From NCBI GenBank assembly GCA_001596135.1, contig CP014773.1:2480001-2544000 (forward strand): a stretch of DNA of 64,000 bases. The letters are read 5' to 3'. Numbering within the stretch: position 1 is the stretch's first letter; each line of letters starts with the position of its first letter. Below the pieces are notes generated by a model. It worked only from the letters and a program-made list of their open reading frames with translations, was not told where the DNA came from and searched no databases. Origin of the DNA: Mucilaginibacter sp. PAMC 26640. Its GTDB lineage: Bacteria > Bacteroidota > Bacteroidia > Sphingobacteriales > Sphingobacteriaceae. The position numbers and the translations under genes were made by a program. Below, one piece after another: positions 8,320-28,076 of this stretch.

Positions 8320-8365
8320 CAGCTGATACATTGTTAAGCTTCGTGATGTTTTCCTTTCTCTTTCT

Positions 8366-8408
8366 GGCGCGAGTATGTAGCGCTGGCTGTGGGTGGCGTA
8401 CTCGTGCC
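8366..8408 (-). repeat. Single inverted REP copy upstream of the RAYT gene
   Basis: GGCGCGAGTATG...GTACTCGTGCC is the reverse complement of the six units at 9019-9390, with central divergence. Its outer arms pair with each other with one mismatch. It lies 44 bases before the transposase ATG and points opposite to the downstream array. Confidence 0.8.
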
Positions 8409-8451
8409 TATCCGCTTGCAATGTATCCGCTTAAATTGTATTTTTAGCTTA

Positions 8452-9012
8452 ATGAGTACGAAGTACAAATTCAGGGACCAAGACAAACTGTACTTTATAA
8501 CCTTCGCAGTTGTAAACTGGATAGACCTTTTTACCCGTAACGAGTACAAAGAGATCATGCTAAAGAGCTGGGAACATTGTAAGGAACATAAGGGTTTGGA
8601 GATCTATGGATGGTGTATGATGACCAATCATATCCACATGATCATAGGCACACATGGCGATAGACTGGAAAACATTATGCGGGATATGAAAAAGCAGACC
8701 TTGTTACAATTGAAGCGGGCTATAAAAGAGCATCCTCAGGAAAGCAGACGCGAATGGATTTTGTGGATGATGGAGCGCGCCGGCAAAAAAAACAGCCAAA
8801 ATATCGAATTTCAATTATGGCAGCAAGACAACCATCCCATCGAACTTTTTAATCATCAGGTCTTGCATCAAAAGCTGGATTATATGCACAACAACCCGGT
8901 GGTAGCCGGGATAGTAGAAAAGCCGGAAGATTATTTATATAGCAGCGCACCCAATTATATCGGCTTGCCGGGCCTTATCAAAGTGACTTTAGTAGATCCG
9001 CTGGTTATGTAG
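8452..9012 (+). CDS. REP-associated tyrosine transposase (RAYT, Y1/HUH superfamily)
   Basis: A 186-residue single-strand DNA nuclease/transposase of the IS200-like Y1 superfamily. It has the metal-binding HUH motif (NHIHMI, His60 and His62) and the catalytic tyrosine in KLDYMHNNP (Tyr144). Both are in the positions usual for RAYTs, and the length is normal. I start at 8452 because MSTKYKFRDQDKLYFITF matches the family N-terminus; the longer frame runs through the REP upstream. One inverted REP lies upstream and six tandem REPs begin seven bases after the stop, the typical setting of a domesticated RAYT that acts on REP sequences. It is not a full insertion sequence, since no terminal direct duplication is visible. 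Confidence 0.92.
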   Translation: MSTKYKFRDQDKLYFITFAVVNWIDLFTRNEYKEIMLKSWEHCKEHKGLEIYGWCMMTNHIHMIIGTHGDRLENIMRDMKKQTLLQLKRAIKEHPQESRREWILWMMERAGKKNSQNIEFQLWQQDNHPIELFNHQVLHQKLDYMHNNPVVAGIVEKPEDYLYSSAPNYIGLPGLIKVTLVDPLVM

Positions 9013-9018
9013 GCGGAA

Positions 9019-9390
9019 GGCACGAGTAAGCCCTGCTCTTTCCGCAGCTGCATACTCGCGCCAGGGTTATTGTGTAGGTCAAAGGCACGAGTACGCCCCG
9101 CTCTTTCCCGGCGCTGCATACTCGCGCCGGGTGATTATGTAGGCGAAAGGCACGAGTACGCCGCGCTCTTCCCAGCGCTGCATACTCGCGCCAGGGTGGG
9201 ATTATGTAGGCGAAAGGCACGAGTACGCCGCGCTCTTCCCGGCGCTGCATACTCGCGCCGGGTGATTGTGTAGGCGAAAGGCACGAGTACGTCGCGCTCT
9301 TTCCCGGCGCTGCATACTCGCGCCAGGGTTATTGTGTGGGCGAAAGGCACGAGTACGCCGCGCTCTTTCCCGGCACTGCATACTCGCGCC
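9019..9390 (+). repeat. Tandem array of six REP elements linked to the RAYT
   Basis: Six 44-45 bp units start at 9019, 9084, 9149, 9216, 9280 and 9346, a period of about 65 bp. Each begins GGCACGAGTA and ends TACTCGCGCC. These arms pair with a single A-C mismatch, and an inner CGCCG/CGGCG pairing is possible in most copies. The spacers (about 20 bp) alternate between AGGGTTATTGTGTAGG and GGGTGATTATGTAGG types and end CGAAA. The first unit is the most diverged. ORFs read through the array are Arg/Ala-rich artefacts. Confidence 0.93.
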
Positions 9391-9433
9391 AGGGTGGGAG
9401 ATATGGCGGCAACTGCATTTGTTTTCTGCATTT

Positions 9434-24191: not shown

Positions 24192-25625
24192 TTACTTCAT
24201 CTCATTCAAAACCTTAAACATCTTCTCCCGGATGCCTCTTCCAGTGCCGTTGTAATTATTAACGATGATGGCAAAACACAGATTGCGGCCCTGGTAGGTT
24301 TGGTAGCCGGTATAGGCCTGGGCGCTGTTGATGCTGCCGCTTTTCATCCGCATATCGTTATATACCGGGAGGCTTTCGTAAAAATCTTTATACCAGGTTT
24401 CTTTGGCTGCCGACTGCATTATGCGCGCCATGGTTAGCGTGGTTACCCTGTTCTCGGGGGATAGTCCGCTGCCGTCGAATACGTTTAAGGTGTTTTTATC
24501 TATGCCAGCCTTTTTTACCCAAAAGTCCTGCAGGGTTTTTACGCCATTGGTAGTTGTTGTGGCCAGCATGCCCGGCGACGGGATAACGGCAAGCAACAAT
24601 TGTTCCGCGTACAGGTTAATGCTGATGTGGTTTTGCCAGTACAGTATGCTGCTCAACGCAGGTGAATTAATGGTAAGCAGTTGCGTGGTGGATTGCGGTA
24701 CCGGCTGACTTTTATTCCTCAAAGTAGCTGCGGATTCCGGTGCATCACTTACGGTGATTCCAAGGCGTTTTAAAGTATCGGTTAAATGATAGGCCAAATC
24801 AAAGGCCGGATCCGGGATGGCGGCATCTATTTTGTTCTTGGTTTGATCTACTGCATAAGTGCCCCGCAAATACATCACATTGCTGTTGATGGCTGGCAGG
24901 TAGGGGTAGGCCTGGTCGCCGGTCTTGGCTTCGCCATTTACGAGTTCGCTTTTAAAAGCTAAGTAGGGCATTTCCGGTGAGGTGCCTGCTACTTTAATTG
25001 GCGTGTTTACTTCCCCGGTGCGCAGTTTAATGCTAAACTGGTTTTCGTGCCAGCACAGCGCAGAAGCCCCCGCCCCATAATAGGTGCCCAGGTCCTGGTA
25101 GATCCAGCCATCAGGGATAGCCTGCGTGCCGTAGTACGAATCATCGCCTATAACGCGCCCGTTCACTTTTTTGATGCCGGCTTTGCGCAGGGCCGTTACC
25201 ATTTGGTTGAGGATATAGTTATCCCGGGTGGTTTCCCAGCGCCAGCTGCCCAGGGTAGGGTCGCCATAACCGCGTGTGATGATATCACCGGTTAAAGTGC
25301 CATCTGCAGCGATGGTGCCGCGATAGCTAAACTGCGTTTTAAATTTATAGTCTTTACCTAAAACGTTCAGCGCCGTAACACTGGTGATCGCTTTCATGGT
25401 AGATCCCGGTGCCAGCCCCATATCCGGGTTGGCGGTAAAAACCTGTTCCCCCGTTTTGGCATCCAGCACGGTTAAAGATACCGAGGCATATTTGCACTGG
25501 CTATCCTGCTGAAATTTGGTAAAAGCCGTTTGCAATTTCTGCTGCAGGTTTTGCGCGGATAAATGCCCGGCTACCAGCAGGAGGGTCAAGGAGGCTATTG
25601 TTTTTAATTTATTGGTCGTATTCAA
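24192..25625 (-). CDS. dacB: D-alanyl-D-alanine carboxypeptidase/endopeptidase (PBP4, S13 family)
   Basis: A periplasmic penicillin-binding protein that trims peptidoglycan peptides or cleaves cross-links. It has 477 residues with an N-terminal signal (LKTIASLTLLLVAGHLSAQ). The SxxK motif is Ser75-Lys78 (PGSTMKA), the second motif lies in VFDGSGLSPENRV (SxN type) and the KSG-type third motif is in MKSGSIN. The start is unusual. The favoured codon at 25625 is TTG, and the only in-frame ATG upstream (25664) falls on the edge of the repeat array and adds 13 residues before the signal. Either may be used. Confidence 0.9.
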   Translation of the reverse strand: MNTTNKLKTIASLTLLLVAGHLSAQNLQQKLQTAFTKFQQDSQCKYASVSLTVLDAKTGEQVFTANPDMGLAPGSTMKAITSVTALNVLGKDYKFKTQFSYRGTIAADGTLTGDIITRGYGDPTLGSWRWETTRDNYILNQMVTALRKAGIKKVNGRVIGDDSYYGTQAIPDGWIYQDLGTYYGAGASALCWHENQFSIKLRTGEVNTPIKVAGTSPEMPYLAFKSELVNGEAKTGDQAYPYLPAINSNVMYLRGTYAVDQTKNKIDAAIPDPAFDLAYHLTDTLKRLGITVSDAPESAATLRNKSQPVPQSTTQLLTINSPALSSILYWQNHISINLYAEQLLLAVIPSPGMLATTTTNGVKTLQDFWVKKAGIDKNTLNVFDGSGLSPENRVTTLTMARIMQSAAKETWYKDFYESLPVYNDMRMKSGSINSAQAYTGYQTYQGRNLCFAIIVNNYNGTGRGIREKMFKVLNEMK

Positions 25626-25663
25626 AGGTTATGTTTTTAACTGTTTTAACTTTTCTTCCCCCA

Positions 25664-26213
25664 TTGTCATCCTGACGAAGGAAGGATCTACTATGCGCCA
25701 TGCTCTAAGCGTGTCGGTTAACAGATGCTTCGTGCCTCAGCATGACAATTTCTTTGTTTCCCCACCTTGTCATCCTGACGAAGGAAGGATCTACTAAACG
25801 CCATGCATAGTGTGACGGGCGTGTCGGTTAACAGATGCTTCGTGCCTCAGCATGACAATTTTGTCATCCTGACGAAGGAAGGATCCATTAAACGCCATGC
25901 TTTAAGCGTGTCGGTTAACAGATGCGTCGTGCCTCAGCATGACAAGGTTGTCATCCTGACGAAGGAAGGATCTACTATGCGCCATGCATTGTGTGACGGG
26001 CGTGTCGGTTAACAGATGCTTCGTGCCTCAGCATGACAATTTTGTCATCCTGACGAAGGAAGGATCCATTAAACGCCATGCTTTAAGCGTGTCGGTTAAC
26101 AGATGCTTCGTGCCTCAGCATGACAAGGTTGTCATCCTGACGAAGGAAGGATCTACTATCCGCCATGCTCTAAGCGTTTCGGTTAACAGATGCTTCGTGC
26201 CTCAGCATGACAA
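25664..26213. repeat. Six-unit REPIN-like palindromic repeat array
   Basis: Six units of 85-92 bp lie at 25664-25748, 25767-25858, 25861-25945, 25948-26039, 26042-26126 and 26129-26213. Each starts TTGTC-ATCCT...AGGAT-CT and ends with the inverted form AG-ATGCT...AGCAT-GACAA, so every unit is two hairpin half-elements facing each other. The centres are CGCCATGCTCTAAGCGTGTC or a variant with GTGACGGGC. Blocks 25767-25945 and 25948-26126 are nearly identical, so the array grew by duplicating two-unit blocks. ORFs across it are translations of the repeat. A degenerate half unit lies at about 26222-26243. Confidence 0.93.
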
Positions 26214-26231
26214 TTTGATTTGCCTGGTTCC

Positions 26232-26561
26232 TCAACACGACAAACTTTTGTTGGGCGGCCATTCCATTATCTCACTATTTAAGAAATTCCATCTCGGGTT
26301 TTGTTCTTCTATCAATTTTATCTTCTTCATCCTTAACCAGCCTTTAATTTCTTTTTCACGTTGGATAGCATGATCTACATATTGGTGCCGCTCGTACCAG
26401 ATTAAGTAGCAGCATTTGTATTTATAAGTAAAACTGTTTTCCTGGTCTGTGCCAGAATAATGTTCACCTAACCGCCTTTCTAAGTCATTAGTAACACCGG
26501 TGTAAAGTACTTTCCGCGTATAGTTTGTGAGGATATAAGTGAAAAAATTATATTGTCTCAT
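26232..26561 (-). CDS. GIY-YIG domain nuclease
   Basis: A 109-residue single-domain protein. The GIY-YIG signature is spread over YILTN and VLYTGVTNDLERR, followed by the family HYSG segment and a Glu in a later helix (REKEIKGWLRMKK). Length matches the small stand-alone UPF0213/YhbQ-like proteins. The fold cuts DNA with one metal ion; targets of these stand-alone forms are largely unknown. The gene lies directly beside the six-unit array, which is downstream of it, and an inverted half-repeat lies 34 bases upstream of its ATG. Its C-terminal codons border the degenerate last repeat. Confidence 0.9.
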   Translation of the reverse strand: MRQYNFFTYILTNYTRKVLYTGVTNDLERRLGEHYSGTDQENSFTYKYKCCYLIWYERHQYVDHAIQREKEIKGWLRMKKIKLIEEQNPRWNFLNSEIMEWPPNKSLSC

Positions 26562-26594
26562 CTTTCAACCTTAGCTATCTGGTATCTCATTAAA

Positions 26595-26622
26595 AGATCC
26601 TTCCTTTATCATGAATGACAAA
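26595..26622 (-). repeat. Inverted half-element upstream of the GIY-YIG gene
   Basis: Read on the minus strand it gives TTTGTCATTCATG, then AAAGGAAGGATCT, matching the left half of the array units (GTCAT ... GGAAGGATCT) with a small insertion. Its orientation is opposite to the left halves of the array, so the nuclease gene is bracketed by inverted copies. Confidence 0.75.
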
Positions 26623-26645
26623 TCTTCTGCAAACATCTTAAATTT

Positions 26646-28076
26646 CTACACTACCGCATCCCGCTCAGGTTTTACATTTCTTTGCGAAATATAATAAATC
26701 GGAATTCCGATCAGCACGATGCCAAGGCCTGGCCAGGTAAAGTTTGGTTTGTAAATGATGAGTAGAACACAAAATGCTGCCCCCATAATAATATACAAGG
26801 CGGGCAAAACCGGGTAACCAAACGCTTTGTAGGGCCTTTCTGCTTCGGGCCGTTTGGCACGAAGGATAAAAATACCCAAAATGGTAAGCATGTAGAACAA
26901 TACAACTACAAAGGAGATCATATCCAGCAAGTCGCCGTAACGGCCGCTTAAGCACAATACAGATGCTACGCCTGCCTGGATCCACAACCCAAATTCGGGT
27001 ACGCCAGCCTCATTTAAAATGCCCGTGCGCTTAAAGAAAACCCCATCTTTAGCCATGGTATAATACACCCTGGCACCTGCGAGTATCAACCCATTATTGC
27101 AACCAAACGTAGAGATCATGATCATTACCGCGATAACGTAGGTACCCACATTGCCAAAAATTACGTGTGAAGCTGCTACGGCCACCCTGTCTTTATCAGC
27201 AGTTGCGATATCATTGAGTGATAATACGCCTGTATACACCACATTTGCCAACACGTAGATGATCGTTACGATGATGGTACCCAGCATCATACTCAGCGCC
27301 ACATCGCGTTTAGGGTTTTTCATTTCGCCTGCTACAAATGTTACACTGTTCCAGGCATCGCTGCTAAATATGGTGCCAACCATTGCGGCCGCTATCGCGC
27401 CAAGGGCGGTAGCCGTAGTCAGACTGGTGGTACTACCGTCCTTATTTAAATTATGCAGGTCCCAGGCGTTTGCCCAGTTGGCGTTCCAGATATCGCTTTT
27501 GAAAGCCAAAAAGCCAAAACCAATCAGGCCAAAAAGGCTGATAAGTTTTGTTAGGGTAAAGGTGGTTTGGATAAGCTTACCCCCCTTAACCCCTTTGGTA
27601 TTCACAAACGTAAGGGCAAAAATAAGTACGATTGAAACTAATTGTGCGGCACTGATCTTTAAAAAACCAGCCTGAAATAAAATATTGTCTTCGCTGACCG
27701 CCGGGATCAGGTAGGCGGTAAATTTAGAAAACGCTACCCCAACTGCCGCTATGGTGCCGGTTTGTATCACCGCGAAGAAACTCCAGCCGTATAAGAACGC
27801 GATAAGTTTGTTATATGATTCTTTCAGATACACATACTGGCCGCCGGCTTTGGGGAACATGGCGCTTAATTCACCATAACTGAGGGCTGCGGTAAGGGTC
27901 ATAAATCCGGTGATCACCCAAACGGCTATCAGCCAGCCTGCCGAACCAACGTTGCGGGTAATATCCGCGCTCACAATAAAAATACCCGATCCAATCATCG
28001 AGCCTGCTACCAGCATGGTGCCGTCAAGCAAACTCAATTCGTGTTTCAATTTAGGTTGGGAAGTATCAGCTGCCAT
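26646..28076 (-). CDS. APC family amino acid permease
   Basis: A 476-residue inner-membrane transporter with about twelve hydrophobic segments. The first helix has GTMLVAGSMIGSGIFIV, the substrate-binding GSGIF motif of the amino acid-polyamine-organocation family. SDAWNSVTFVAGEMKNPKRD is the conserved loop after helix 6. It resembles LAT-like exchangers and serine/threonine exchangers; the substrate is not decidable. I use the ATG at 28076, since the frame's first codon at 28079 is a TTG. It is divergent from hppA. Confidence 0.88.
   Translation of the reverse strand: MAADTSQPKLKHELSLLDGTMLVAGSMIGSGIFIVSADITRNVGSAGWLIAVWVITGFMTLTAALSYGELSAMFPKAGGQYVYLKESYNKLIAFLYGWSFFAVIQTGTIAAVGVAFSKFTAYLIPAVSEDNILFQAGFLKISAAQLVSIVLIFALTFVNTKGVKGGKLIQTTFTLTKLISLFGLIGFGFLAFKSDIWNANWANAWDLHNLNKDGSTTSLTTATALGAIAAAMVGTIFSSDAWNSVTFVAGEMKNPKRDVALSMMLGTIIVTIIYVLANVVYTGVLSLNDIATADKDRVAVAASHVIFGNVGTYVIAVMIMISTFGCNNGLILAGARVYYTMAKDGVFFKRTGILNEAGVPEFGLWIQAGVASVLCLSGRYGDLLDMISFVVVLFYMLTILGIFILRAKRPEAERPYKAFGYPVLPALYIIMGAAFCVLLIIYKPNFTWPGLGIVLIGIPIYYISQRNVKPERDAVV

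Follow-up and report, generated by a model that had tools for sequence, protein, structure and literature searches.

What does a small GIY-YIG nuclease gene do among palindromic repeats in the genome of Mucilaginibacter sp. PAMC 26640, and could its product be the enzyme of these repeats? Repetitive extragenic palindromic (REP) sequences are among the most abundant bacterial repeats, and the excerpts of Di Nocera et al. (2013, PMC3733652) used here describe two superfamilies, of which one is served by RAYT transposases and the other, the CGTC superfamily, was left without an enzyme: its members "apparently lack a dedicated transposase" and are not associated with tyrosine transposase genes. 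The same excerpts identify Neisseria dRS3 as a CGTC-1 repeat, and A. lipoferum and S. meliloti are named in them too. A first-pass annotation of the present locus had proposed a second enzyme type, beside the RAYTs, that is associated with GTCAT-hairpin elements.

The nuclease gene and hairpin units of the window

The window, that is, the whole 64-kb stretch analysed, covers positions 2480001-2544000 of the 5.6 Mb genome. Its GIY-YIG gene (26232-26561, minus strand) is stand-alone and intact, encodes 109 aa (protein P0001), and lies between an S13 peptidase gene on one side and an amino-acid permease gene on the other. On its 3' side is an array of six REPIN-like units of 81-88 bp each (25666-26211, plus strand), which were read from the sequence and located with a pattern: 25666-25746, 25769-25856, 25863-25943 (one base changed in the right hairpin), 25950-26037, 26044-26124, and 26131-26211, the last of which is 20 bp off the gene end. 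Every unit consists of a GTCAT hairpin, a spacer, and an inverted GTCAT hairpin (GTCATCCTGACGAAGGAAGGATC ... GATGCTTCGTGCCTCAGCATGAC). The array is thus directly downstream of the gene, as the first-pass annotation had described. The inverted half-element that it had placed 34 bases 5' of the start codon is also at that position (26595-26619, minus strand, by pairing to the array copies), in a degenerate form: the tag-side arm is decayed, the complementarity to the array copies is 80% over 25 nt or 85% over 20 nt, and the hairpin is no longer fully paired. Judged by eye (no tool score), another degenerate half-element may cover the stop codon (about 26221-26243, minus strand). The pattern matched 11 halves in the window, all of them inside the array (mean of 100 shuffles, 0.00), and the left half of the element has 61 copies genome-wide at up to two mismatches, mostly clustered (reversed control pattern, 0). 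In the region 25500-26750, no Rfam family came near threshold; PADLOC gave no match, and PHROGs gave a single weak family of unknown function.

Elsewhere in this genome, the second stand-alone GIY-YIG gene (L002) had no GTCAT hairpin within 1.5 kb, and at L004 (405-719) three GTCAT hairpin pairs were located some 0.8-1.1 kb away from a GIY-YIG domain that belongs to a protein of 456 aa. The window also contains a RAYT-type Y1_Tnp gene (8389-9012, PF01797, 27.1 bits) within a locus at 8364-9393, to which the annotation had likened the nuclease locus; the likeness extends to the inverted copy upstream (8364-8412) and the array downstream, and fails for the element itself, a different palindrome.

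In Pfam at 0.001, P0001 matched only PF01541 (54.5 bits, cut-off 22.6); in NCBIfam, TIGR01453 (group I intron endonuclease) was below threshold (17.3 bits, cut-off 56.05). Residues Y20, G22, and E69 are invariant in 68 sequences, and R30, H34, and N88 are conserved in at least 90%; Y20, G22, R30, E69, and N88, all present in the window protein, are presumably the catalytic residues. The AlphaFold2 model had a mean pLDDT of 91.8, and its Foldseek matches all fell short of 0.001, the nearest being UPF0213 1zg2 (E 1.1e-3) and chains of Slx1 (E 0.018-0.28); a profile search gave 1zg2 with E 1.9e-8, and Slx1 only weakly (0.75). The Slx1-Slx4 complex processes branched DNA, according to the titles of structures 6seh and 7cq4.

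Linkage of hairpins to nuclease genes

For the family Sphingobacteriaceae, GIY-YIG matches to P0001 in 151 genomes were taken in E-value order, and the first 100 loci (64 genomes) were fetched with up to 20 kb round each; the window genome's own rows were left out. A strict pattern of the window hairpin type had copies in only 28 of the 151 genomes, and such a pattern misses other stem types. Therefore, a generic scan was adopted, which counted as a hairpin any GTCAT whose stem, beginning at AT, was perfect over 5 bp and enclosed a loop of 3-20. Note that degenerate halves, such as that at 26595-26619, are uncounted because the scan requires the perfect stem.

Under this definition, a hairpin was found within 500 bp of the GIY-YIG gene in 77 of the 100 family loci, which share ancestry, versus 7/87, 10/85, 8/78, and 5/75 for equally large intervals at 2, 4, 6, and 8 kb (loci with both sides available). 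When one locus per genome was taken, the counts were 48/64 versus 4/57 (2 kb) and 7/56 (4 kb). Hairpin density fell from 4.40/kb at 0-150 bp to 0.084/kb beyond 4 kb. Hairpins were on one side only at 19 loci and on neither side at 23. The count of 77/100 was unchanged when matches inside the gene were disregarded, and was 75/100 when a C was required after the closing AT. Among 15 control tags run on the first 60 loci, 14 gave 1-7/60 and GTCAC gave 11/60; GTCAC-tagged hairpins are thus also enriched near nuclease genes (L066-L125), and this is probably a variant tag. At one locus (L066, 9845-10204), the nuclease C-terminus CHSERSEESYTPC resembles the translation of a GTCATTCTGAA-type hairpin that overlaps the gene end. 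The polarity of the window locus, which the annotation had taken to be shared with the RAYT locus, did not prove general: for the nearest upstream and downstream hairpins in the 100 loci, all four orientation pairs occurred (+/-, 17; -/-, 15; +/+, 15; -/+, 11), and a fixed REPtron polarity was dropped.

The same linkage was found across phyla. A profile built from 68 family proteins was used to scan 84,980 species genomes, and the matches comprised at least 586 stretches, at least 567 of which encode a relative; the best 80 were kept. In this set, a GTCAT hairpin was within 500 bp in 63/80 loci (unchanged in both recounts), versus 3/59 at 2-2.5 kb and 2/54 at 4-4.5 kb, and eleven control tags gave 1-7/80. 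A perfect hairpin was thus absent within 500 bp at 23/100 family loci and 17/80 multi-phylum loci. The flanked loci belong to Bacteroidota, Rhizobium, Ensifer, Desulfobulbaceae, Chloroflexi, Acidobacteria, Nitrospinae, Clostridia, Fibrobacter, Planctomycetota, and Portnoybacteria, and unflanked ones (L184, L195, L208, L230) fall in several of the same groups. In a plasmid collection, 45 records matched; 14 loci with the gene were fetched, of which nine were flanked (L289, L291, L292, L299, L367, L368, L370, L372, L373) and five were not (L290, L293, L298, L369, L371). On a Planktothrix plasmid (L373, 2989-3273), the flanked gene has a type IIL restriction enzyme gene (MmeI) on one side and DISARM drmA on the other. 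In N. gonorrhoeae, the GIY-YIG gene is inside an array of GTCATTCCC hairpins, which have the form of dRS3. The link between GIY-YIG genes and hairpins was present in A. lipoferum, S. meliloti, and Neisseria alike. The enrichment at stand-alone GIY-YIG genes elsewhere, which the first-pass annotation had left to be looked for, is therefore strongly positive, and its proposal of a second enzyme type stands as far as the linkage is concerned; what the enzyme would do is treated below.

It might be argued that the nuclease gene is a passenger, either cargo or a frequent insertion target in REP-rich intergenic regions, and that another enzyme moves the hairpins. Because the repeats live between genes, we compared intergenic gaps of at least 60 bp in the same family loci, in four length classes. 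Hairpins were present in 121/181 gaps adjoining the nuclease gene, and the other gaps carried them too (72/724), as a passenger gene among intergenic REPs would have it; however, other gaps of equal length rarely did so (23/33 v 13/305, 38/58 v 21/199, 36/60 v 22/154, and 22/28 v 14/54). Two gene-side controls likewise argue against a passenger. First, when 22 genomes were picked by hand (20 without a P0001 match at 1e-9) and a profile gave 37 weaker GIY-YIG relatives, a REP-form hairpin was found at only 1 of 30 loci fetched with flanks of up to 1.5 kb, namely at a broken gene (L271, G073). Second, when 30 Y1_Tnp loci were fetched from matches in 61 genomes of the same family, only three had any GTCAT hairpin within 500 bp (the position in truncated locus L336 is approximate), none with the typical sequence. 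As for 11 GIY-YIG proteins of more than 400 aa, elements were about 780-1100 bp off at L004 and one was more than 1 kb off at L286; the remaining loci had no element within 1.5 kb. The association is restricted to one GIY-YIG subfamily.

Hairpin type, mobility, and element number

Hairpins were typed by the letters after GTCATN (CTGA, TCGA, GCGA, CCGA, and others) and placed on a nuclease tree, built from 175 proteins by a quick method on a short alignment, in which types with at least three rows gave 120 labelled rows. The type changed 31 times on this tree, versus 59-74 times in 300 shuffles. The nearest nuclease of another genome had the same type at 87 of 137 loci (70/94 at more than 65% identity, 16/40 at 55-65%) and a different type at 50, and two nuclease loci of one genome shared the type in only 7/25 cases (random pairs, 17.7%); the type is thus tied more closely to the enzyme than to the host. 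In genomes with two or more types, 22/30 loci matched the type of the nearest foreign relative. A passenger gene gives no reason for the type to track the nuclease clade even within one genome, and we regard that explanation as unlikely on the whole. That the gene is probably the partner of its hairpins is the reading that we favour.

The sixth stem letter and its partner, whose complementarity was left free in the search pattern, were complementary in 130/135, 104/109, 126/127, and 108/114 distinct contexts of four types (468/485 pooled), the GC type being little informative, for its pair is almost always T-A and hardly varies. This complementarity indicates that it is the folded form that is maintained. 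Among 517 hairpins within 500 bp of 180 genes, the base before GTCAT was T or C in 484, and the tail was CT in 387 and CC in 82.

Of 689 nuclease pairs with an identity of 60% or higher, only 28 had a homologous neighbour gene within 4 kb in common; thus, the gene moves, and the hairpins go along. In S. meliloti, the unit has the order hairpin, short leader, gene, 12 bp, and inverted hairpin (tag plus one base), and adjoining the full unit, between two such hairpins, is a derivative that shares its ends but has lost most of the gene through an internal deletion, as would be expected of a miniature element; Sinorhizobium K101 has a fused single hairpin where this derivative stands. In Azospirillum lipoferum 4B, the gene is located between sufB and sufC with hairpin pairs on both sides, and this insert is missing in all four Azospirillum relatives read (seven more records gave the same two-piece match); the sufB-sufC spacer is too diverged for exact element ends. 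In Shinella, the unit is missing in three relatives, and the junctions are not clean. Hairpins at both unit ends and absence from orthologous sites were thus observed with junctions that are not sharp, and neither a clean target duplication nor an exact junction was found at the Shinella and Azospirillum sites. The only strain polymorphism that was resolved, on S. medicae plasmids (L300 v L303-L305), was considered as an insertion and rejected: it is a deletion of 161 bp at AGCC microhomology, with a REP hairpin on each side (3 of 8 shorter alleles aligned).

The nuclease protein is under purifying selection: dN/dS was 0.03-0.16 in 13 of 16 hand-chosen close pairs, those where dS was computable. 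This suggests a useful protein, and together with the Slx1-like fold and the hairpins often found near both gene ends (medians, 81 bp upstream at 67 family loci and 89 bp downstream at 68), it would suit hairpins that terminate or regulate transcription of the nuclease gene, or a hairpin-trimming host enzyme, without any part in movement. The gene is, however, patchy, its neighbours are seldom conserved, and some copies are broken or frameshifted (L081, L089, L112; G073), unlike a settled host gene, and arrays of many copies exceed the needs of a terminator, so that such regulation or host service seems quite improbable to us.

The partner-enzyme reading was also examined at the level of element number, which the first-pass annotation had expected to track the nuclease. 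Elements were counted with two patterns (the GCGA type and the strict CTGA type), and a P0001 match at E <= 1e-9 was scored as nuclease presence. Ten or more elements were found in 44/82 genomes with a close nuclease and in 8/69 without (Mann-Whitney p 9.5e-9, uncorrected for kinship); within genera the trend was weaker (p 0.0136 for g12, 0.0194 for g16, 0.0545 for g1, 0.071 for g19, 0.271 for g4, and 0.326 for g14). The expectation therefore holds as a tendency with exceptions. Of the 11 genomes whose P0001 matches were best, 4 had no copy of the strict CT pattern. Abundant elements in genomes lacking the nuclease, which the annotation had named as the finding that would speak against it, do occur in this minority: seven of these genomes have 16-121 elements, and the clearest case, G014, has 396 GC-type halves, no stand-alone GIY-YIG gene (only GIY-YIG proteins of 609 and 460 aa), and no Y1_Tnp match. 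Such genomes are a point for the passenger explanation discussed above. At 30 fetched G014 loci (L337-L366), the elements are pairs of 64-76 bp, and several are composites with a CT-type pair nested in a GC-type pair. In G014, either the enzyme was lost, or it acts from elsewhere, or it is unneeded to keep the elements.

RAYT (Y1 HUH) transposases, such as the one at 8.4-9.0 kb, might be supposed to mobilise these elements as ordinary REPs, the architecture of hairpin pairs, arrays, and a gene in the middle being that of RAYT REPtrons. This is hardly credible, since the tag is YGTC, not GTAG, typical copies of YGTCAT hairpins do not flank the 30 Y1 loci fetched, the RAYT of the window has its own, different element, G014 has its 396 halves with no Y1_Tnp match, and the cited excerpts report CGTC repeats to be unassociated with tyrosine transposase genes (Di Nocera et al. 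2013, PMC3733652).

Proposed role and comparison with known systems

A nuclease gene that is found among palindromic repeats here and in many unrelated bacteria is a strong candidate for the missing enzyme of this REP class. In our judgement, the stand-alone GIY-YIG gene probably encodes a partner enzyme dedicated to REP hairpins of the CGTC type (here YGTCAT), the gene with its flanking hairpins being a REPtron-like mobile unit and the paired-hairpin elements its non-autonomous companions. With moderate confidence, we further propose a new class of bacterial mobile element, present in many phyla, whose sole enzyme would be a GIY-YIG nuclease of about 100 aa that recognises YGTC-tagged hairpins and nicks them if they are of its own stem type, and which would supply the enzyme that the CGTC REP superfamily (Neisseria dRS3 and the rhizobial repeats included) has lacked so far. 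We read the nuclease as the counterpart of the RAYTs. In the mechanism that seems most likely, the hairpin would fold out of single-stranded or supercoiled DNA, a nuclease of the matching type would recognise the folded stem beside the unpaired YGTC tag and nick there, and repair or replication might then copy the element elsewhere or expand arrays; an enzyme with the UPF0213/Slx1 fold could recognise the foot of the extruded hairpin beside this tag. Binding, nicking, and the resulting movement are inferred here. With a nuclease matched to the hairpin type, the question can be put to the test using small proteins and oligonucleotides. If the proposal is true, a GIY-YIG enzyme joins the short list of those sustaining repeat populations in bacterial genomes.

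Small GIY-YIG proteins of the UPF0213 type (1zg2, 1ywl) and Slx1 are alike in fold and active-site pattern, and we know of no link of these proteins to repeats. GIY-YIG homing endonucleases (I-TevI type) are alike in that a GIY-YIG nuclease is tied to mobile DNA, but the 109-aa protein has no long DNA-binding tail. In titles and abstract starts of the top-ranked matches from the open literature, the field covered by our search (subscription journals and preprints being outside its scope), no published link between GIY-YIG proteins and REP-like repeats was found, and "repetitive extragenic palindromic" with GIY-YIG gave no paper; in a 2018 review of HUH enzymes (PMC6006769), the terms CGTC and GIY gave a single match, in the reference list.

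The CGTC REP superfamily, as far as it is set out in the excerpts of PMC3733652, resembles the present elements in the CGTC/TGTC tag, the stem beginning with AT, the inverted dimers (head-to-head in all six window units and also in G014, where only inverted pairs were extracted), the alternative complementary stem letters, and hosts that include Bacteroidetes and alpha-Proteobacteria. Its stem is 8-9 bp with a loop of 4-5 and a tail of CCA, whereas the window hairpins have a short perfect stem of about 5 bp, a longer loop, and a tail of CT; Rhizobiales copies such as L210 fit the superfamily in stem and loop. These excerpts report no dedicated enzyme, whereas a GIY-YIG gene is linked here. RAYT/TnpA-REP and REPIN systems, in the passages of PMC3116915 and PMC8266576 drawn on, are alike in their palindromes with unpaired tags, inverted pairs, and arrays, in a dedicated nuclease gene with palindromes of its own type on its flanks, and in enzyme-repeat co-evolution; they differ in having an HUH Y1 enzyme and a GTAG tag, in place of a GIY-YIG enzyme, a YGTC tag, and no fixed polarity. 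The plan of an enzyme plus a palindrome is thus known from the RAYTs, and what would be new is the class of the enzyme and the superfamily that it would serve.
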